From Myxococcales bacterium (GTDB taxonomy: Bacteria; Myxococcota_A; Polyangia; GCA-2747355), in assembly GCA_020431405.1 (NCBI GenBank), contig JAGQIK010000323.1, positions 1 through 40,981 of the forward strand: 40,981 bases of DNA. The letters are read 5' to 3'. Both the position numbers and the translations under genes were made by a program. The notes under the pieces were generated by a model. The model had not been told where the DNA came from and made no database searches. It was given only the letters and a program-made list of their open reading frames with translations. This document shows, in pieces, positions 1 through 8,700 of this stretch; the first letter of the stretch is position 1; every line of letters begins with the position of its first letter.

Positions 1-227
1 GTGGCCGCGGGCGCCGCTGGCGCGCGCGCGTCCGAACGCGTCGGTGACGCCGCGGCGCGCCTGCGTCGCGCGGCGCTCGTCCCGCGAGCTGGCGTCGAGC
101 CGGCAGGACGACAGCCCCCCAGCGGCAGCGCTACCCCCAAGAGCAGCAGCGCGGCCGTCGCTGCGAGTGGCGCCCTCGCACCCAGCGCCTCGCACCGCCG
201 CCGCGCCCTCTGTCGGTGGCGGCGCAT
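1..227 (-). CDS. Lipoprotein, N-terminal part only (runs off the left edge)
   Basis: Reading the minus strand from an ATG at 227 gives 75 open codons with no stop up to the window edge. The first 18 residues are basic (MRRHRQRARRR...), followed by a hydrophobic stretch at about residues 21-36 and a canonical lipobox LGGC at residues 36-39. After the cysteine comes a Ser/Thr/Ala/Pro/Arg-rich linker, as is usual for outer-membrane lipoproteins. It is divergent from the hydrolase at 298, with a 70-bp gap that must hold both promoters. The function cannot be told because the mature domain lies outside the window. The plus-strand frames over the same bases lack any recognisable protein and are taken as shadows. 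Confidence 0.55.
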   Translation of the reverse strand, partial: MRRHRQRARRRCEALGARAPLAATAALLLLGVALPLGGCRPAGSTPARGTSAARRRRAAASPTRSDARAPAAPAA

Positions 228-297
228 CTGCAAATGATGCGCTGTCACGGCGATCTGAACAAGAAATCAGCCTCCGATCTGGCATGCTCGCCTGCTC

Positions 298-981
298 ATG
301 CGGAAGCTGACCCTCGAGCTCGCCAGCGAAGGGCCCGCCGTCGGCCCCACCAGCGTTTCGGCGCTTTTTTCGCGCCCCGACGACGCCGACGTGCTGCTGG
401 TGCTGGCGCACGGCGCGGGCGCGGGCATGCACCACAGCTTCATGCAGGCCCTCGCAGAGCGGCTCGTCGCGTGCCGCGTGGCCGTGCTGCGCTATCAGTT
501 CGCCTACATGGAAGCCGGCCGGCGCCGCACCGATGCGCCAGCCAGAGCCCACGCCGCCGTCGCCGCCGCTTGCGCCGCCGCGACCGCCAACGCCCCCGAT
601 CTGCCCTGCTTCGCCGGCGGCAAGTCCTTCGGCGGGCGCATGACCTCGCAGCTCGCCGCCACGTCGGCGCTGCCGAACGTGCGCGGGCTGGTGTTCTTTG
701 GCTTCCCGCTGCACCCGGCGAAAAAGCCGTCGCAAAAGCGCGCCGAGCACCTCGCGCAGGTCACGCAGCCGATGCTCTTTCTGAGCGGCACGCGCGACGC
801 CCTCGCCGAGCTGTCGCTGCTCGAGCCGCTGGTGCGGCGGCTCGGGGCGCGCGCCACGCTGGCGCTCGTCGAAGGCGCCGACCACGGCTTCTCGGTGCTC
901 AAGCGTTCGGGGCGCACGGACGACGAGGTGCTCGACGAGCTCGCCGAGCGCGCCGCCTCGTGGATGCGCTCGCACGGTTGA
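298..981 (+). CDS. Alpha/beta hydrolase of the KANL3/Tex30 (dienelactone hydrolase-like) type
   Basis: This 227-residue protein has a complete small alpha/beta-hydrolase fold. A strand followed by LVLAHGAGAG lies at about residues 33-43 (oxyanion region), the nucleophile elbow GKSFGG puts Ser at 110, GTRDALA gives the acid Asp167, and ADHGF gives His196. The GAGAGM and GGKSFGGRM signatures match the KANL3/Tex30 family of uncharacterised bacterial hydrolases, so the substrate is unknown. There is no signal peptide, so it is probably cytosolic. It starts 70 bp from the divergent lipoprotein. The kinase start lies 50 bp downstream, so the two may be co-transcribed. Confidence 0.85.
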   Translation: MRKLTLELASEGPAVGPTSVSALFSRPDDADVLLVLAHGAGAGMHHSFMQALAERLVACRVAVLRYQFAYMEAGRRRTDAPARAHAAVAAACAAATANAPDLPCFAGGKSFGGRMTSQLAATSALPNVRGLVFFGFPLHPAKKPSQKRAEHLAQVTQPMLFLSGTRDALAELSLLEPLVRRLGARATLALVEGADHGFSVLKRSGRTDDEVLDELAERAASWMRSHG

Positions 982-1031
982 TGGCGCGACCCGCGGGGAA
1001 GTACCCTCCTCGCTCAACACGAGAGGCAGCC

Positions 1032-1967
1032 TTGAGCGACGAAAGCGGCCCAATCAACAGCGCCAACACCTTTCACGCCATGCGCTCGGGCAACATGGTG
1101 CTCGACGGGCGCTACGAGCTCTGCGAGTACCTCGGGCAGGGCGGCATGGGCCAGGTCTGGCAAGCGCGCGACAAGTGGCTCGAGATGGACGTCGCCGTCA
1201 AGCTGCTCACGCGGCAGACACGCGGCTTCAGCGAGGCGCACGATCGGCTGCGCGCCGAGTACAAGGCCATGGCGCGCCTCACGCACCCCAACGTGGTGCG
1301 CACGCACGGCTTTGGCAGAGCCAAGATCCCCGACATCCAGCGCGGTGGAGAGGTCGAGATCGACTACTTCACAATGCAGCTCGTGCCGCCGCCGCGCCAT
1401 ACGATCGAAGACCTCCTCGAGCAGGGCTCGCTGCCCGTGCCGCGCGCCTTTCGCCTCGCGCGCGATCTCGCCGAGGCGCTGCTGGCGCTCGAGGTCGCCG
1501 GCATCGTGCACGGCGACTTCAAGCCTTCCAACATCTTCGTCGTCGAGACCGACGAAGGCCTCTCGGCGTTGCTCGGCGACCTCAGCTCCTGCCGCCTGCC
1601 CGAGCAGCCGCCCGAGCCCGTGCGTACCGGCACACCACCCTACATGGCGCCCGAGCTGCTCGATGACGCCCTCGGCGAGCACCCCATCGCCAGCGTCACC
1701 ACGTCGGTGGACGTGTGGGCCTTCGGCACCGTGCTCTACGAGATGCTCGTCGGCGAAGCGCTCTTTCCAACCTCACATCACGCGCCGTCGCTGATCGACA
1801 ACGCCCGCGCCGTGCGCCAGCTGATGACCCCCGAGCACATCGACGCGCGCGTCGAGGCGGTCGACAGCATGAGCCGCCGCGTGAAGGACATGATCAAGCG
1901 CTGCCTGGCGCTCGAGCCGTCGCAGCGCGGCGGCGCCGAAGATGTCAAAGCCGCGCTCGTGCTGTAG
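1032..1967 (+). CDS. Soluble eukaryote-like serine/threonine protein kinase
   Basis: This 311-residue protein is almost only a kinase domain. The Gly loop LGQGGMG is at residues 34-40, the ATP-anchoring Lys is in AVK (57), the catalytic loop HGDFKPSN is at 160-167 and the APE motif is at 206-208. I chose the TTG at 1032 because GAGAGG precedes it by 5 bases; the open frame continues to 216 but only through the hydrolase in another frame. An ATG at 1080 is the alternative. Two key motifs deviate: HRD is HGD, making it a non-RD kinase, and DFG is DLS (183-185). Asp162, Asp183 and Asn167 remain, so activity is plausible. There is no membrane segment or sensor domain, unlike PknB-type kinases. 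The substrate is unknown. Confidence 0.88.
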   Translation: MSDESGPINSANTFHAMRSGNMVLDGRYELCEYLGQGGMGQVWQARDKWLEMDVAVKLLTRQTRGFSEAHDRLRAEYKAMARLTHPNVVRTHGFGRAKIPDIQRGGEVEIDYFTMQLVPPPRHTIEDLLEQGSLPVPRAFRLARDLAEALLALEVAGIVHGDFKPSNIFVVETDEGLSALLGDLSSCRLPEQPPEPVRTGTPPYMAPELLDDALGEHPIASVTTSVDVWAFGTVLYEMLVGEALFPTSHHAPSLIDNARAVRQLMTPEHIDARVEAVDSMSRRVKDMIKRCLALEPSQRGGAEDVKAALVL

Positions 1968-2127
1968 CGGCCCGTTGATAAATCCGGACCGAGCGAGGTG
2001 CGTCCCTGCGTGCCGCTGGCAAGGCGCGAGGAGGAGGCATATCGGGGCATACGTCGACGACGAGCAACGCAGTCAGCGGTGCGCAGGGGCGTGCATCGCG
2101 ACGGGAGGGTTTGTCAACGGGCTGCTA
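1965..2127 (+). ncRNA. Long fold-back element / candidate structured RNA
   Basis: The gap after the kinase is occupied by a 163-base imperfect inverted repeat. The outer arms, 1965-1982 and 2110-2127 (18 nt each), pair with 16 Watson-Crick and 2 G-U pairs. The inner arms, 1998-2020 and 2072-2094 (23 nt each), pair with 17 Watson-Crick and 6 G-U pairs. Between them lie equal 15-nt internal segments that pair in part (GCGA at 1993-1996 with TCGC at 2096-2099). The roughly 50-nt apical part holds a purine run GAGGAGGAGG. All eight non-canonical positions are G-U when the plus strand is the RNA; on the other strand they would be A-C mismatches. The left arm begins with the kinase stop codon TAG. 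It may be a mobile fold-back (MITE-like) repeat, a 3'-UTR structure or a small RNA. I saw no second copy in the window. Confidence 0.55.
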
Positions 2128-2168
2128 GCGGTACACTATCGAGCGCGGCCGTCGATGTAGGGGGTGAG

Positions 2169-2753
2169 ATGAACCGCACAAAAGCCACGATCGTCGCAGC
2201 GGCGCTGATGGCGTTCGGCTGCGGACAGCCTCCTGCCCACACCACAAGCGGCACCGCCGGCGCGGTTGCTGCGCGCGAAGGTGATCGTCTCGAGGTCCGC
2301 CGCGACGGCGATCACGTCACCGTACGCGTGCGCCCGCCCAGCGCCGCGCTCGCGCGCACCGACGAGCTGCACCTCGTCGCAGGCGTGACGTTTCGCGAGC
2401 ACGATCGCCAACGCGGCCTCGCCACCGTGCTCGTCGGCTTTCGCCGCGTCGGCGAGGCGTTCCGCTTCGCTAGCTGCCGCACGATCACGTTTCACGCCGC
2501 CGGCAAGCTTGTCGGCCAGACGCTGCTGCGCCGCGAAGCGCAGATCGGCGGCAAGCGCGTGCACGAGCTGGTCTTCGCGCTGCTGCCCGCCGCCGCCGCG
2601 CGCCGCCTGGCCAGCGCCGAGCGCATCTCCGTCGGCCTCTGCGGCGAGCGCTTCCCCATCAGCGACGCCGAGCATCGCCAGCTGCGCCGCTTCGTCGCGC
2701 GCCTCGCCGACCTGCGCAGCGGCTCGCTGCCCGCCGTGGTCACCCAGCGCTAG
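2169..2753 (+). CDS. Small putative lipoprotein of unknown function
   Basis: This 194-residue protein starts at an ATG preceded by a purine-rich GGGGTGAG. A hydrophobic N-terminus (residues about 5-16) ends in AFGC (Cys18), a relaxed lipobox, followed by a Thr/Ser/Gly linker. The mature part is rich in beta-prone segments (LEVRRDGDHVTVRVRP, LVAGVTFREHD, ASCRTITFHA) and ends without membrane segments. I do not recognise the family. The open frame upstream to 1998 crosses the fold-back element and was not used. It converges on the Nudix gene with a 9-base gap that includes the palindrome AGCGCT. Confidence 0.7.
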   Translation: MNRTKATIVAAALMAFGCGQPPAHTTSGTAGAVAAREGDRLEVRRDGDHVTVRVRPPSAALARTDELHLVAGVTFREHDRQRGLATVLVGFRRVGEAFRFASCRTITFHAAGKLVGQTLLRREAQIGGKRVHELVFALLPAAAARRLASAERISVGLCGERFPISDAEHRQLRRFVARLADLRSGSLPAVVTQR

Positions 2754-2762
2754 CGCCGAGCG

Positions 2763-3293
2763 CTACGCCCGAGCAAAGCGCTCGTAGTAGAGCAGCACCG
2801 CGATGGTCTTGGCGTCTTCGATCACGCCGTCGCGCACCATCGTGATCGCCTCGTCGAAGGCGCGCGTCTCGGCGACGATCTGCTCGGTGGCCTCGAGCTT
2901 CTGACCCACCGGCGTCAGCCCGCGCGCGACGTAAGCGAACATGCGCTCGGTGCACCACCCGGGCACCGGCAGAAACTGCATCAGCGCCTCGATGTGGGCT
3001 GCGCGATAGCCCGTCTCCTCTTCGAGCTCGCGCGCGGCGCAGGGCGCGGGGTCCTCACCCGGCTCGAGCGTGCCCGCCGGAAGCTCCCACAGCTCGCGTC
3101 CCACGGCATAGCGGTGGTTTCGGATCAGCACCAGGCGCTCGTCATCGAGCATGGGCAGGATCACCACCGACCCCGGATGCACCACCAGCTCGCGCTCGCG
3201 CGTCGACCCGTCGTGCGCCGCGACGGTCACACGCTCGACATCGAACTTCGCGCCTCGCAGCAGCCGCTGCCGTGATCCGGGCTCGTTGGACAT
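2763..3293 (-). CDS. Nudix hydrolase, ADP-ribose pyrophosphatase type
   Basis: This 176-residue protein contains a complete Nudix box of the form G-x5-E-x7-RE-L-x-EE-x-G-Y at about residues 72-94 (RELEEETGY is its second half), which binds Mg2+ and cleaves nucleoside diphosphate linkages. The flanking sequence (LIRNHRYAVGRELWELPAG before it, PVPGWCTERMFAYVA after it) matches the NudF/ADP-ribose pyrophosphatase subgroup, so an ADP-ribose- or NDP-sugar-type substrate is likely. The start could be this ATG or a GTG three codons upstream (3302); neither has a clear Shine-Dalgarno sequence. It is divergent from the SDR/Rieske pair and probably cytosolic. Confidence 0.87.
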   Translation of the reverse strand: MSNEPGSRQRLLRGAKFDVERVTVAAHDGSTRERELVVHPGSVVILPMLDDERLVLIRNHRYAVGRELWELPAGTLEPGEDPAPCAARELEEETGYRAAHIEALMQFLPVPGWCTERMFAYVARGLTPVGQKLEATEQIVAETRAFDEAITMVRDGVIEDAKTIAVLLYYERFARA

Positions 3294-3396
3294 GACAGGC
3301 ACTATAGCGACTGGCGCCGCCTCTGTGTTATACGCCGCGGATTCGCTGGCCGCGGAGCGGTCGGCGTCCCAGACGCGCGCACGAGGAGGCGGTTTG

Positions 3397-4575
3397 ATGT
3401 CAGATTCCCGAGTGAATTCGAAGATACCGGTCGAGCGTCACTTCGCCGGCAAGGTGCTCGTGACCGGCGCCGCTGGACACCTCGGGGCCAACCTCGTGCA
3501 CGAGCTTCTGCGGCAGGGCCGCGACGTGCGCGTGATGCTTCGCGACGGCAGCAACAACGCCGCCATGGATGGGCTGCCGGTAGAGCGACTGCGCGGCGAC
3601 CTGCGCGACCCGCGCGCCTGCGACGAGGCCGTGCGCGACTGCGAGACCGTCTACCACTGCGCCGCCAAGCTCTCCACGATCAACGGCAACCAGAGCGAGA
3701 AGCGCGAGATCTTCGAGTGCAACGTGCTCGGCACGCGCAACATCCTGCGCGCCGCACGCGCCGCCGGCGTCGAGCGCACCGTGGTGACCGGCTCCTTCTC
3801 CGCCGTGGGCCACGACCTCGACGAGCCTGGCCGCCCCGCCGACGAGACCGTCCCGTTCTTTCCCTTCGAGCACCACCTGCCCTACGCGCGCAGCAAAGTG
3901 CTCGTCGAGCACGAGTGCCTCAAGGCCGCTGTCGAAGGTCAGGACGTCGTGATCGCCACGTCGTGCGCGATCCTCGGCCCGCACGACTACAAGCCGTCGC
4001 GCATGGGCCAGGTGCTGATCGATCTGACCCACGGCCGGCTGCGCGCCTATATCCCGGGCGGCGGCTTCGAGTTCGTCGCCGCGCGCGACATCGTCGCTGG
4101 CCACCTGCTCGCCATGAGCCGCGGCCGCAGCGGTCAGAAGTATGTCTTCGCCAGCGAGTGGAATTCGCTCGAGGACGTGCTCAAGATCTACTCCGAGGTC
4201 AGCGGCAAGCCGCTGCCGCGCCTGCGCCTGCCGGCGCCGCTGCTGCAGCCTATCGCCGAGATCACCAACTTCCTGCTCGCCAACTTCTTCCCCAACGCGC
4301 CGCAAGGCCGGCTCACGCCGGCGGCGATCCGCATCCTAACGCTGCAGCGTCGCGCCGACCTGACCAAGGCCAAGACCGAGCTCGGCTACGAGCCCACCGA
4401 CATCCGCTCGGCCGTCGCCGAAGCGTACGACGACTTCGCGCGCCGCGGCCTGGTGCCTCGCCGACCGCAGGTGCAGGTGCCGGTTAAGCCCGCGGCGCCG
4501 CGCTTTGAAGCCCGTGCCGCCGCTCCGGCGCGCGAGCCAGTGGTGACCGAGATCAACAGCCGCGCCACGGCGTGA
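3397..4575 (+). CDS. NAD(P)-dependent SDR reductase, 3-beta-HSD/epimerase type (SdmB-like candidate)
   Basis: This 392-residue protein is an extended short-chain dehydrogenase. The Rossmann motif GAAGHLG is at residues 24-30, the catalytic Ser is near 133-135 (TGSFS), and YARSK gives Tyr163/Lys167. Overall it resembles 3-beta-hydroxysteroid dehydrogenase-like and NAD-dependent epimerase proteins. After about residue 345 comes an Ala/Pro/Arg-rich tail unusual for the family. The start is the ATG 7 bases after a perfect GAGGAGG (3383-3389). The next gene, a Rieske oxygenase, begins 17 bases after its stop, so the two form an operon. Bacterial sterol C-4 demethylation uses exactly such a Rieske oxygenase (SdmA) plus 3-beta-HSD-like reductase (SdmB). 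The sterol role is an inference; sugar or aromatic substrates are possible. Confidence 0.85.
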   Translation: MSDSRVNSKIPVERHFAGKVLVTGAAGHLGANLVHELLRQGRDVRVMLRDGSNNAAMDGLPVERLRGDLRDPRACDEAVRDCETVYHCAAKLSTINGNQSEKREIFECNVLGTRNILRAARAAGVERTVVTGSFSAVGHDLDEPGRPADETVPFFPFEHHLPYARSKVLVEHECLKAAVEGQDVVIATSCAILGPHDYKPSRMGQVLIDLTHGRLRAYIPGGGFEFVAARDIVAGHLLAMSRGRSGQKYVFASEWNSLEDVLKIYSEVSGKPLPRLRLPAPLLQPIAEITNFLLANFFPNAPQGRLTPAAIRILTLQRRADLTKAKTELGYEPTDIRSAVAEAYDDFARRGLVPRRPQVQVPVKPAAPRFEARAAAPAREPVVTEINSRATA

Positions 4576-4592
4576 GTCACGGAGTCAGCACG

Positions 4593-5708
4593 ATGAGCGT
4601 TCGCAAGCCGAGCCCGCCGAGCTTCGACGACGCGCGCAACCGCCGCCAGAAGGTGCGCTCCGCCGGCCTCGACCCCAACTACTGGTACGCCGTCGAGCAC
4701 GACCACAAGCTCGGCAAAGGCGAGGCCGTAGAGGTCACCTTCTGGGGCGAGTCGGTGGCGCTGTGGCGCGACGAGAACGGCGCGCTGCACGCCATCGAGG
4801 ACCGCTGCTGTCACCGCCAGCTGCGCCTCTCGCAGGGCGAGGTGCGCGGCTGCCAGCTGGTCTGCAAGTACCACGGCTGGTGCTACGACGGCAGCGGCGA
4901 GGTGGTCGACATCCCGCACGAGACCTTCGGCCGCAAGAAGCCCGCGCTGCGCGTGCGACAGTATCCGCTGCGCGTTCGCTACGGGCTGATCTGGATCTTC
5001 TTCGGCGACCCCGCGCGTGCTGACGGCGTGCCGATGCCCGAGATCCCCGAGCTCGAGGGCGATGATCGCTGGGCCTGCGTTCCGGTGGATTTCACCTGGA
5101 ACGCGCACCACTCGATGATCATCGACAACGTCAGCGACTTCACGCACGCCTACCTGCACAAGAAGTACAAGCCGTTCGATGGCGCCTCGAAGCTGACCCG
5201 CCTCGTCGAAGAAGACGACCGCGTGCTGATGAGCTACGACACCAAGGTCGGCGGCGGCAAGATCTCGGGCATGTTCGTCGATCGCAAGGCCGTCGACACG
5301 AGCTCGATGGACCTTGGCTACCAATACCCCTACCAGTGGTCCAACACGGACAACGCGATCAAGCACTGGTGCCTGGTGCTGCCCGAGAGCGAAGAGCGCA
5401 CGCGCGTGTTCTTCCTCTTCTACTTCAAGTCGTTCAAGGTGCCGCTGACGCCGCTCAAGATCCCACGCTGGCTGATGACGCCATTTCTGCGCATCTCCAA
5501 CGAGCTGCTCGTCAAGCCGCTGCTCGCCGAAGACGGCTGGGCCGTCGAGGAAGAGCAGGAGGGTTGGCGGCGCCACTGGGACGCCCCAATCGCCGAGCTC
5601 AACCCCGCGGTGCACGCCATGCAGACGCTGACGATCCGCAAGTGGGAGGAGTATCTCGCCAGCCAGCAAGGCGAGAGCCGGCGCCCGCGCCTCTCGGCCG
5701 AAGGCTAG
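4593..5708 (+). CDS. Rieske [2Fe-2S] non-haem iron oxygenase (SdmA-like candidate)
   Basis: This 371-residue protein is a full-length Rieske oxygenase alpha subunit. The cluster ligands are Cys72-x-His74 and Cys91-x2-His94 (CCH...CKYHGW). The mononuclear iron site lies in NVSDFTHAYLH, with Asn179, Asp182, His185 and His189 as the likely bridging and ligand residues. The C-terminal half is the substrate-binding catalytic domain. I chose the ATG at 4593, which has GGAG 8 bases upstream; a GTG at 4572 overlaps the SDR stop. No ferredoxin or reductase gene is nearby, so electrons must come from elsewhere. With the upstream SDR it makes a monooxygenase/dehydrogenase pair suited to oxidative removal of a methyl group. 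The substrate is not shown by the sequence. Confidence 0.9.
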   Translation: MSVRKPSPPSFDDARNRRQKVRSAGLDPNYWYAVEHDHKLGKGEAVEVTFWGESVALWRDENGALHAIEDRCCHRQLRLSQGEVRGCQLVCKYHGWCYDGSGEVVDIPHETFGRKKPALRVRQYPLRVRYGLIWIFFGDPARADGVPMPEIPELEGDDRWACVPVDFTWNAHHSMIIDNVSDFTHAYLHKKYKPFDGASKLTRLVEEDDRVLMSYDTKVGGGKISGMFVDRKAVDTSSMDLGYQYPYQWSNTDNAIKHWCLVLPESEERTRVFFLFYFKSFKVPLTPLKIPRWLMTPFLRISNELLVKPLLAEDGWAVEEEQEGWRRHWDAPIAELNPAVHAMQTLTIRKWEEYLASQQGESRRPRLSAEG

Positions 5709-5720
5709 CGTTATCCCTCG

Positions 5721-8700
5721 CTAGAGCTTGCGCTTGACCGTCATCACCTCGACGAAGGTGCGGTCCTTCATCACGACGAACGACTTCTCGCGGAACGACA
5801 GCTTGCCGCGCCCGTCGTGCTGCACCACCTGCACGCTACCCATGCCGTAGCCCATCGGCCCGCGCCGGTAGTAGTTGACCTGCAGCGTGTAGGGGAAGGC
5901 CTTGGCGCGGCCGTCGATGACAAACGCCTCGGGGCCGTAGCCGGTGGTGACGTCCGCGTAGAGCTCGCCGCCCGAGGCGAGATGCTTGTGGCTGTAGAAC
6001 GCCTTGTTGTTGTAGCGGTCATAGATGTGCAGATCGACGTCGTTGGCGTCGGTCTCCCAGCTCATGACGAAGCGCAACGATGGCCGGCGCGCGACGCCCA
6101 CGCCGAGAGCAGCCAGTCGGCGGCGAAGCGCCTTGTCCTCGCGCGGCGCTTTGCGCAGCCACGCGGCGGCCACGAGCCCCAGGTCATCGCGCATCACGCG
6201 CCGCACGCCACGAAAGCGTCCGCCCGGGTAGCTGCGCTGCAGCGCGCGCTCGAGCACAGAGAAGGCCTTGGCGTAATGGCCCGCGCGCAGCTCGGCGTAA
6301 GCGAGCAGCCGATGGCTGTTGGGGTGATCGGCGCGCTGCTTGGCAGCCACGGCATACGTATCGCGCGCCAGCGCCAGCGAGGGCTTGTCGGCAAGCGCGC
6401 TCAGTCGGTTGCCGGCGAAGCGGCGCATGTCCGCGCGCGACGGAAACAGATCGATGATCGAGCCGAAAGCGCGCGCCGCGCGCTGGCGCAGCCCCTTGGC
6501 GAAGAGTGCATCGCCGAGGCCGACGAGCGCGAGCACGTCGCCCGGTTTTTCGTCGCGCCAGCGACGCGCGAAGGCGAGCGCGCGATCGATCTTTCGCTGC
6601 GCCAGCATCGTCGTGACCTGCGCCAGCTTGCCCGTCAGGCCCGAGGCGGCACCGAGTCGCGGGCGCGCAGGTGCTGTCGGCGGGCGGTCTCGCAACACGC
6701 TCGGGGCAAGGCCGGTTCCCGAGTGGCGGAAAACGAAGGGATACGTCACGACAACGATGCCGCCGCCGCGCGCGGCCGGGAAGCGCCAGCGCCCCACCGC
6801 GCGCGAGACGCAGCGCGCGACGCGGTCGATGCCGCGGCCAGCGATGCGCCGCGGCACGGCGCTGCGTACGTGACCGGTGCCGTCGATGACGAAGCGCACG
6901 TCGAGGCGTCCGAAGTCCGCCACGGCCCCCGCACGCTGGTAGCAGGTGCGCACCTCGTCGATGTGTCGCCTGACGACGCGACGGATCATCGAGCGGCTCA
7001 GCGAGCCCAGCACGGTGGCACGCCCGGTGACCACGCGCGGCCTAGCCATGCGGCGACGAGCCACCCGCAGCCCCCTGCGAACGGGGCGCGCGAGCGCAGC
7101 GCGCGCACGGATCCGACGGCCTCCGCCGAGCGCGCCGTCGATCAGGGCGTCGAGCGAGTCGCGTCTGCGTCGCGAGGCCACCCGCCCACTGCCGCGCCCC
7201 ACGCCAAGGCCGCCGATGCCGTGGCTGTCGCCAACACGGTTGCCGACGAGCCCACCGAGCGCGTCACGCGCGTCGGTACCCAACGCCGTGTTGCCACCGC
7301 CACCACCGCCCGCGCCACGCCGGATGCTGCCCAGATCCCCGATGCGTCCCTCGCCCGTTCCACCGCCGCCTCGCCCCGTCCCGGTGACCCCCATCCCACT
7401 TAGCCGCGGCCCGCGCAGCCCATAGCGTCCTGACATCTTGCCGCTGCGGCCACGCCGCGACCCAGCCCGCTTGAGCCAGCCCGGCGCTGCGCCACTGCCC
7501 GCCGCGATGTCCTTCTTCTCCTCCTTCTTGCCGCCTTTCTCTGCCAGCTCCCGCCGCGCGGTGGTGTGCTTGCGCGAGCGCGCCGCGAGACCGCGGTGCG
7601 TCAGCGTCGGGCCCAGAGGCGTGACGGCGAGGATGTCGCTCAGCGCGCGGCGATCGAGCCCGAAGCGCCGGTAGTCGTACTCGGTCTCGAGCACGAGCAG
7701 CGCGGTGTAGTCGCTGAGCACGCGGTTGGTCGTCGAGAGCCGCACGACGCGCTCGGCGAGCTTTCGGCGCGTAGCAGCGTCCTTCGCCGAGAGCGTGGCG
7801 ATCTGCGCCTGCAGCGAGGCGATGCGCGCGCGCACGAACGCGCGATCCAGCAGCGCGCTCTCCACCGGCGACAGCGTCACGCGCGAGCGCTGTTCGCCAA
7901 CGCTGACCTGCAGCGTGCGCGCCTCGCGGGCGCCGAGCGCGCTGTCGAGCTCGGCGTAGACCAGCGCCTCGTCACCGTCTTGAACGCCGTCGAGGTGCTC
8001 GGGATAGGTGAACGCGGCGCCGCCCACGGCCACCTTGACGCGCGACGCCGTGGCGCGAGATAGGCGAGACACCACGCGATCGAGCGCCTGGTCGCGATCG
8101 ATAAGCAGCCCGTCGGCCGGCAGCGCGCCGCGCACCACCGTCGCGAGCGCGGTCTCGTCGCGGATGCCGCCCACCACCAGCGCGTCGGCGCGCTGCGTCT
8201 CTGGCTTGAGCGCCTCGGTCAGCTTGCCCAGCCCGCTGCGCTTGCCCGCGGTCAGCACGCCGTCGCTAATGATCAGCACGCGCGCGCGATCGCGCTGCGC
8301 CTTAGCCCAGCGCAGCGCCCGAGAAAGGTCCGACGCGCCCAGCGCGCCGTGCGCTCGCATCGACGCGATCTGCGCGGCGCCGAAGCCGTCGGCCCGCCCG
8401 CGATAGATCTCGCGCACGACCTGGTCGTAGCAAGCCACCACCAGCGGCATCGCGCCACCGTGCTTCTTTCGCAGCGCCTCGACCAGGGCGCCGAAACTCT
8501 TCAGCTGTCGCGCGAAGCCCAACGCGCGCGAGGCGCTGCTGTCGAACAGCACCAGCAAGCTCTTGATGCCAACGGGCCTGCGCGTGAGGCGCACGCGAGC
8601 GCGCACCACGGCGAGCTTGCCGCTGACGAGGCCGCCCACGCGGGCGCTGCCGTGTACCAGCGCGTCGCCAGCCGGCTTCTGATCACGCAGCGCCAGCGTG

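Follow-up and report, generated by a model that had tools for sequence, protein, structure and literature searches.

A very widespread, so far unnamed family of non-coding mobile elements with a conserved hairpin core, seen at the stop codon of a myxobacterial protein kinase gene

Background

Bacterial MITEs are usually described as species- or family-restricted curiosities, and we know of no mobiliser that has been identified for ERIC or Correia in more than 30 years. The Correia or NEMIS elements of Neisseria are 100-160 bp long and geneless, have TA ends with a TA duplication, give a long stem-loop transcript and have no known transposase (PMC2229807, PMC10969869). ERIC/IRU of the Enterobacteriaceae (127 bp) has TA ends and a stem-loop whose plus strand folds better than its minus strand. 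In Streptococcus pneumoniae, RUP is a 107-bp MITE at TA targets that is attributed to IS630-Spn1 (PMC2229807). The IS5-family MITEs of Pseudomonas syringae, such as MITEPsy1, use CTAG or YTAA targets and have no coding capacity (PMC3189936). Finally, REPs and REPINs, with their RAYT or TIRYT transposases, are dispersed, hairpin-based palindromes, some of them in inverted pairs.

The element described here, at positions 1965-2127 of a myxobacterial contig, is like Correia and ERIC in being short, with TA ends, a TA duplication, a stem-loop and no known transposase, and further like Correia in being geneless. However, Correia arms measure about 26-27 nt against 57 in the present family and its ends are TATA-type, while ERIC has shorter arms and a longer apical stem. 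MITEPsy1 differs in its length of 100 bp, its 4-bp duplication, its occurrence mainly in one species complex and the absence of a described conserved RNA core. RUP occurs in a single species with no core conservation reported, whereas our family has no IS630 association. REPs are 20-40 bp with a GTAG tag, whereas the present element measures 163 bp, duplicates TA and lacks a linked Y1 gene; membership of the REP/RAYT class was rejected, as the element is not a GTAG-tagged 20-40 bp palindrome linked to a Y1 transposase. We file the family as a MITE of unusually broad distribution whose structured core is conserved: its members are short, multicopy and dispersed, and have terminal inverted repeats, a target-site duplication and no transposase coding capacity.

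Results and discussion

A long hairpin inserted in a kinase stop codon

The window, i.e. the whole stretch of 40,981 nucleotides that was analysed, contains a plus-strand protein kinase gene (1080-1967, 1080 not being a set start codon; PF00069, E = 1.9e-39), whose TAG stop at 1965-1967 holds the insertion. The whole element, from TA to TA, spans 163 bp on the plus strand (1965-2127), as delineated by independent copies with equal ends and length and by its fold, and is the longest inverted repeat within positions 1-8000. This length leaves no room for a transposase gene of its own. A sequence-only reading of this stretch had noted that the left arm begins with the kinase stop codon and that the arms pair over 41 positions; both observations hold, the recount being identical at 33 Watson-Crick and 8 G-U pairs with no other pair. 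The outer arms (18 nt) contribute 16 Watson-Crick and 2 G-U pairs, and the inner arms (23 nt) 17 and 6.

In the fold, the outer helix is formed by the terminal inverted repeat TAGCGGCCCGTTGATAAATCC (1965-1985) and the right strand GGGTTTGTCAACGGGCTGCTA (2107-2127), whose exact end recurs elsewhere in the genome. The TA dinucleotides at 1965-1966 and 2126-2127 are the left and right copies of the target duplication, as indicated by an empty-site comparison in a related subfamily and by flank statistics. The strands of the inner helix (1998-2020 and 2072-2094) are supported by the fold and by a compensatory pair relative to the copy on contig C562. They enclose an apical core, AAGGCGCGA...GAGCAACG (2021-2069), that is conserved across phyla. 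Within it, alignment A1 and pair counts identify GAGGAGGAGG (2028-2037) as the left strand of three tandem G.A/A.G steps with single G-C pairs between them, and GACGACGA (2056-2063) as the right strand of this tandem G.A stack.

The plus-strand RNA of 1950-2140 has a predicted folding energy of -116.5 kcal/mol (z = -8.0 against dinucleotide shuffles, with 0 of 200 shuffles matching it), versus -79.3 for the minus strand (z = -2.8). The z-scores indicate that the asymmetry between the strands is real. Folded alone, the 163 nt gave -106.9 and -72.9 for the plus and minus strands, respectively.

Copies and taxonomic range

The element is one copy of a so far unnamed, very widespread non-coding mobile family. 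The window genome (G000) has about 20 divergent copies, with different arms that each fold to the same long hairpin with the same tip. It also has two further near-identical full copies of the window element (97-98%), a fourth copy broken up by an insertion, several divergent families and some partial copies. A copy of the window subfamily on contig C58 (L030) is interrupted within the core by a GC-rich palindromic insert of about 95 bp, flanked by the short repeat GCAAC. Distinct subfamilies occur in related genomes, where a single genome can hold up to 31 copies.

A scan of named genomes with the tip pattern GGCAAGGCGCGA-N22..36-GAGCAACGCAG recovered at least 120 genome stretches. Among the matches listed, the hosts include Acidobacteriota, Gemmatimonadota, Myxococcota, deltaproteobacterial lineages, Binatia, Eisenbacteria, Planctomycetota, Verrucomicrobiota, Bacteroidota, Actinomycetota and alpha-, beta- and gammaproteobacteria, a list that misbinned contigs may have inflated, though they would not explain it wholly. 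It takes in isolates, such as Lysobacter and Pseudomonas, and several chromosome-level MAGs. Homologues, on which the sequence-only reading had made its proposal of a structured element depend, are thus present both in the window genome and in other phyla. E. coli genomes and phages gave no match, and plasmids none to a consensus core; four plasmid records match the Pseudomonas form. No Rfam 15 family scored above its gathering threshold for the element, a permissive search bringing up nothing beyond plant-miRNA hairpins at noise level (E about 0.2 or worse), and in the literature searched we found no paper describing the family. The same structured core, fixed hairpin length and YTAR target rule, often realised at a stop codon, are found in Myxococcota as well as in Acidobacteriota, Gemmatimonadota, Bacteroidota and Proteobacteria.

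Constant length and covariation under divergent sequence

The distance from TA to TA is 161-167 in 41 of 42 elements with both ends defined (163 in 17, 164 in 15), the outlier measuring 176, while the identity of their outer 18 nt averages 43%. The left arm measures 56-58 nt in all 42, a constancy that was not imposed by the search, which allowed 42-72 nt, and the right arm 57-59 nt in 37. The tip follows the layout C-[GA]-N-[GA]-N-[GA].../...[GA]-N-[GA]-N-[GA]-G, then a short stem, and thus forms a ladder of tandem G.A steps with single covarying pairs between them. In some members a G.A step is swapped for Watson-Crick pairs, as in L039 (GGCC/GGCC).

Compensatory changes, named by the sequence-only reading as a test of structure, are abundant, and arm sequences differ between subfamilies while their pairing covaries. 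Across 22 divergent cores 90.7% of cells are paired (26-41% in slid controls), 17 of 21 pairs show double changes, and there are 75 double-change cells against 23 after shuffling. The complete chromosome G143 carries 11 copies, all of 164 bp and 98.3% paired, with 14 double-change cells against 4.8 in shuffled data and pairs varying as U-A, U-G, C-G series. Even the window copy and its 97% identical sister on C562 differ by one compensatory change, C-G to G-C, at element positions 41:123.

These data also bear on the Shine-Dalgarno-like run that had been noted in the apical region and taken to suggest a hidden or exposed ribosome-binding sequence. The run GAGGAGGAGG is present, but it forms the left side of the tandem G.A stack, with GACGACGAG as the opposite strand, and homologues swap it freely (e.g. 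GACGAGGGAG, GAGGCCGAGG) while keeping the cross-strand pairing. A ribosome-binding-site switch is therefore not supported: the run itself is not preserved, and no start codon lies at a constant distance downstream.

A single-strand signal confined to the inner hairpin

In the arms of 32 distinct elements, under a scoring that treats both mismatches alike, the inner arms contain 101 G-U against 42 A-C (p = 9e-7), and so favour G-U over the A-C mismatches that had been named as evidence against a structured RNA. The terminal 20 bp, a smaller set, contain 36 against 26 (p = 0.25); the bins are approximate, their boundaries overshooting in some copies. This distribution suggests that the ends serve as sites for a DNA transposase and that selection acts on the hairpin in the form of one strand, either RNA or single-stranded DNA, given that a strand-specific tolerance of wobble pairs implies that one strand folds alone. 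Of the earlier alternatives of a structured RNA or a MITE-like fold-back, the mobile, MITE-like nature and a structure conserved at the level of a single strand are both upheld, and the ribosome-binding part is not supported. The contrast between wobble-tolerant inner arms and symmetric ends offers a tangible and testable mark of a single-stranded step during a MITE's life.

Target site and preference for stop codons

Insertion occurs at YTAR, mostly CTAG, with duplication of TA. Of 55 elements, 48 have C or T immediately before the left TA and 45 have G or A immediately behind the right one; the elements end in TAG (49/55) or TAA (6/55). A 4-bp CTAG duplication was considered and rejected, as flanks such as GTA...TAG in the window copy and TTA...TAA in L157 fit a 2-bp TA duplication better. 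In genome G122 several copies lie inside another repeat with more than 110 occurrences. Its empty form, CCGCC-CTAG-CCTCG (115 pattern matches), can be compared with the filled site CCGCC-CTA[GGGCC...GGCCC]TAG-CCTCG, and one copy sits at the same repeat site in the opposite orientation. A landing repeat, GCTCCTCGCGCTCCGCCCTAGCCTCGATTCGCTCGC, which contains CTAG and has more than 110 copies, was observed in G122 and G072 (e.g. L273-L292).

In the kinase gene, the TA of the stop codon is the left target duplication and the G is supplied by the element. The stop codon survives insertion because the element's own G comes after the duplicated TA, rebuilding TAG. In 15 of 29 elements, as opposed to 26 of 89 other CTAG sites, a coding-like frame of 200 codons or more terminates precisely there; counted per end, the figures are 17/54 and 26/178 (p = 0.009). 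In G143, a long open frame terminates at the element in 8 of 11 copies. This habit probably reflects the scarcity of CTAG within genes, its enrichment at TAG stops and the sparing of the protein by such insertions; CTAG is five-fold depleted in element-bearing loci. Rebuilding the TAG at a targeted stop codon is a neat route to harmlessness for a parasite.

Relative to the gene whose stop is occupied, 8 copies are in sense and 9 in antisense orientation, and the insertions are spread over unrelated genes. Among the 8 G143 copies with a long frame the corresponding numbers are 3 and 5. Since copies lie either way round, the 3'-UTR regulatory RNA for the host gene that the sequence-only reading had entertained is not favoured.

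Search for a mobiliser

In G122 the N-terminus of an IS5-like transposase (NF033580, PF13340), a fragment scoring under the curated cut-offs, lies behind the end CTAGGGCGTGTCCCT, which is near-identical to the CTAGGGCCTGTCCCT in which the elements of that genome end. PF13340 (IS5) turned up in just 2 of the 12 focal genomes, but draft assemblies break at IS copies and lose them, which makes a missing match elsewhere weak evidence. We detected no autonomous relative; in the complete chromosome G143, with its 11 copies, there is no larger element sharing the ends, and no pair of element ends occurs at IS-like spacing. A search of the window genome for a large element with the window's ends gave only fragments, a 27-bp mini-hairpin and altered copies. 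IS630 (DDE_3) was rejected as the mobiliser, as it co-occurs with the element in 7 genomes against 9.9 expected across 113, with no association in the window genome. A search for ISAzo13 (PF07592) gave zero matches but is uninformative, the control being likewise silent.

Y1 genes are numerous in G000 and G036, while three of the five genomes with many elements, G003, G006 and G017, have no match at threshold. Y1/RAYT was rejected because none of the Y1 genes detected is flanked by elements and the ends of the one examined, a G036 copy with GTCCGACCCC, differ. The multicopy, divergent Y1-transposase-like genes at L228-L246 (12 matches in G000, 34 in G036) encode about 230-280 aa and are unrelated to the hairpin. 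On an Azotobacter plasmid (L250, 2450-3920) about 100-130 bp separate an element from an IS630 copy with ends CTAGTGTTATGACAC / GTGTTGAGACACTAG. Our best guess is that the mobiliser is a CTAG-targeting DDE transposase acting in trans.

Interpretation

Taken together, we consider it probable that 1965-2127 is a non-autonomous MITE whose ends are the sites of a trans-acting transposase and whose hairpin is kept by a single-strand step. The many copies, the insertion at YTAR/CTAG with a TA duplication, the constant 163-bp hairpin, the cross-phylum core, the covarying arms and the insertion at stop codons are all direct observations. In this model the terminal ~20 bp would be recognised on double-stranded DNA by a transposase presumably of the DDE type that targets CTAG/TA, an IS5/IS427-like enzyme being the best single candidate. 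The inner hairpin and its tandem G.A tip would persist because one strand folds alone at some step, more likely as RNA than as single-stranded DNA. Given the random orientation to host genes, such a step would more likely serve the element's propagation or maintenance than host regulation.

Long palindromes are prone to template-switch correction, and such quasi-palindrome correction could produce paired changes without selection. It is conceivable, though on the doubtful side, that this is an ordinary IS-derived MITE in which only the terminal inverted repeats matter and the hairpin is an old fold-back maintained as a by-product of correction, with no single-strand function. The YTAR target, the TA duplication and the IS5-like ends in one genome fit such an origin, as does MITEPsy1, whose targets are CTAG/YTAA and which has been ascribed to a relative of IS5 (PMC3189936). 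However, correction would remove both the G-U pairs and the conserved internal loops of G.A pairs, whereas these asymmetric loops persist, the bias of G-U over A-C is restricted to the inner arms, the core is conserved across phyla under differing ends, and arm length is constant while arm sequence is not. A portable stem-loop useful to the host, stabilising mRNAs, being cut by RNase III or terminating transcription after stops, would explain why about half of the tested copies lie exactly at stop codons, and has parallels in Correia transcripts, which are cut by RNase III, and in ERIC, which alters mRNA decay at gene 3' ends (PMC10969869, PMC2229807). Yet the wobble bias marks one strand while sense and antisense copies are nearly equal, and the insertions are scattered over unrelated genes; this even placement makes a step in the element's own propagation a simpler reading than selection on host mRNAs, and we regard a host-useful RNA as decidedly unlikely.

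A single-stranded-DNA element mobilised by a Y1 (HUH) transposase, as in the REP/RAYT/TIRYT systems, would also account for a strand-specific hairpin with G.T wobbles. The abundance of Y1 genes in G000 and G036 and the GTAG with a REP-like hairpin at the end of the betaproteobacterial form agree with this. To our knowledge, however, Y1 transposition makes no TA duplication, and the lack of Y1 matches in three element-bearing genomes and of flanking elements at the Y1 genes found further renders it very improbable, even though RAYT-like genes can have long inverted-repeat flanks with dispersed copies (PMC3733652). An IS630/Tc1-mariner MITE, already disfavoured above, is equally improbable in our estimate: IS630 inserts at CTAG and duplicates TA, and an Azotobacter IS630 with CTAG ends adjoins one element, but no association was seen over the 113 genomes.

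A more speculative reading, which we think unlikely, makes the fold itself the mobility signal, with a machine that reads the tandem-G.A tip on RNA or single-stranded DNA and measures ~57 nt to the ends, which would leave the end sequences free to change. ERIC and Correia would then join the same superfamily as shorter-armed members, with anchors 26-28 nt from their TA ends, and the family offers a handle on the old question of their mobiliser. By eye, Correia (L248) has a left anchor CAAGGCGACGA and a right anchor GGCAACGC in the same order as in the family, and ERIC (L247) has AAGGCG ... GAGCGAACGC anchors and a tandem G.A beside the apical stem. Covariance model R1 gave no meaningful score at the Correia position and no match at that of ERIC; as the model recognises neither, we do not file the family with them. 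In both L247 (ERIC, E. coli, 330-520) and L248 (Correia, N. gonorrhoeae, 350-560), AAGGCG stands about 26-27 nt in from the left TA, with an AACGC-type anchor on the right-hand side, the two anchors being almost equally far from the TA ends; this arrangement resembles the family with arms shorter by 30 nt.

Variant forms

Several composite or reduced forms were also encountered. The Pseudomonas form (L089, L093, L112, L152) is about 265 bp long and consists of the core and, about 15 nt further on, a second, inverted degenerate core. In the betaproteobacterial form (L106, L114, L138, L142; about 245 bp) the core hairpin is followed by GTAG and the REP-like hairpin, and this form is possibly related to the Bordetella BRE repeat (PMC3110155). 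G122 has elements of about 240 bp (L294-L299) with the family ends and left arm and no core, suggesting that ends and core are exchangeable. Mini-hairpins composed of the two ends only, of 27 bp (L209, about 1008-1034, on G000 contig C655) and 34 bp (L314, 254-287, in G143), are deletion or excision remnants.
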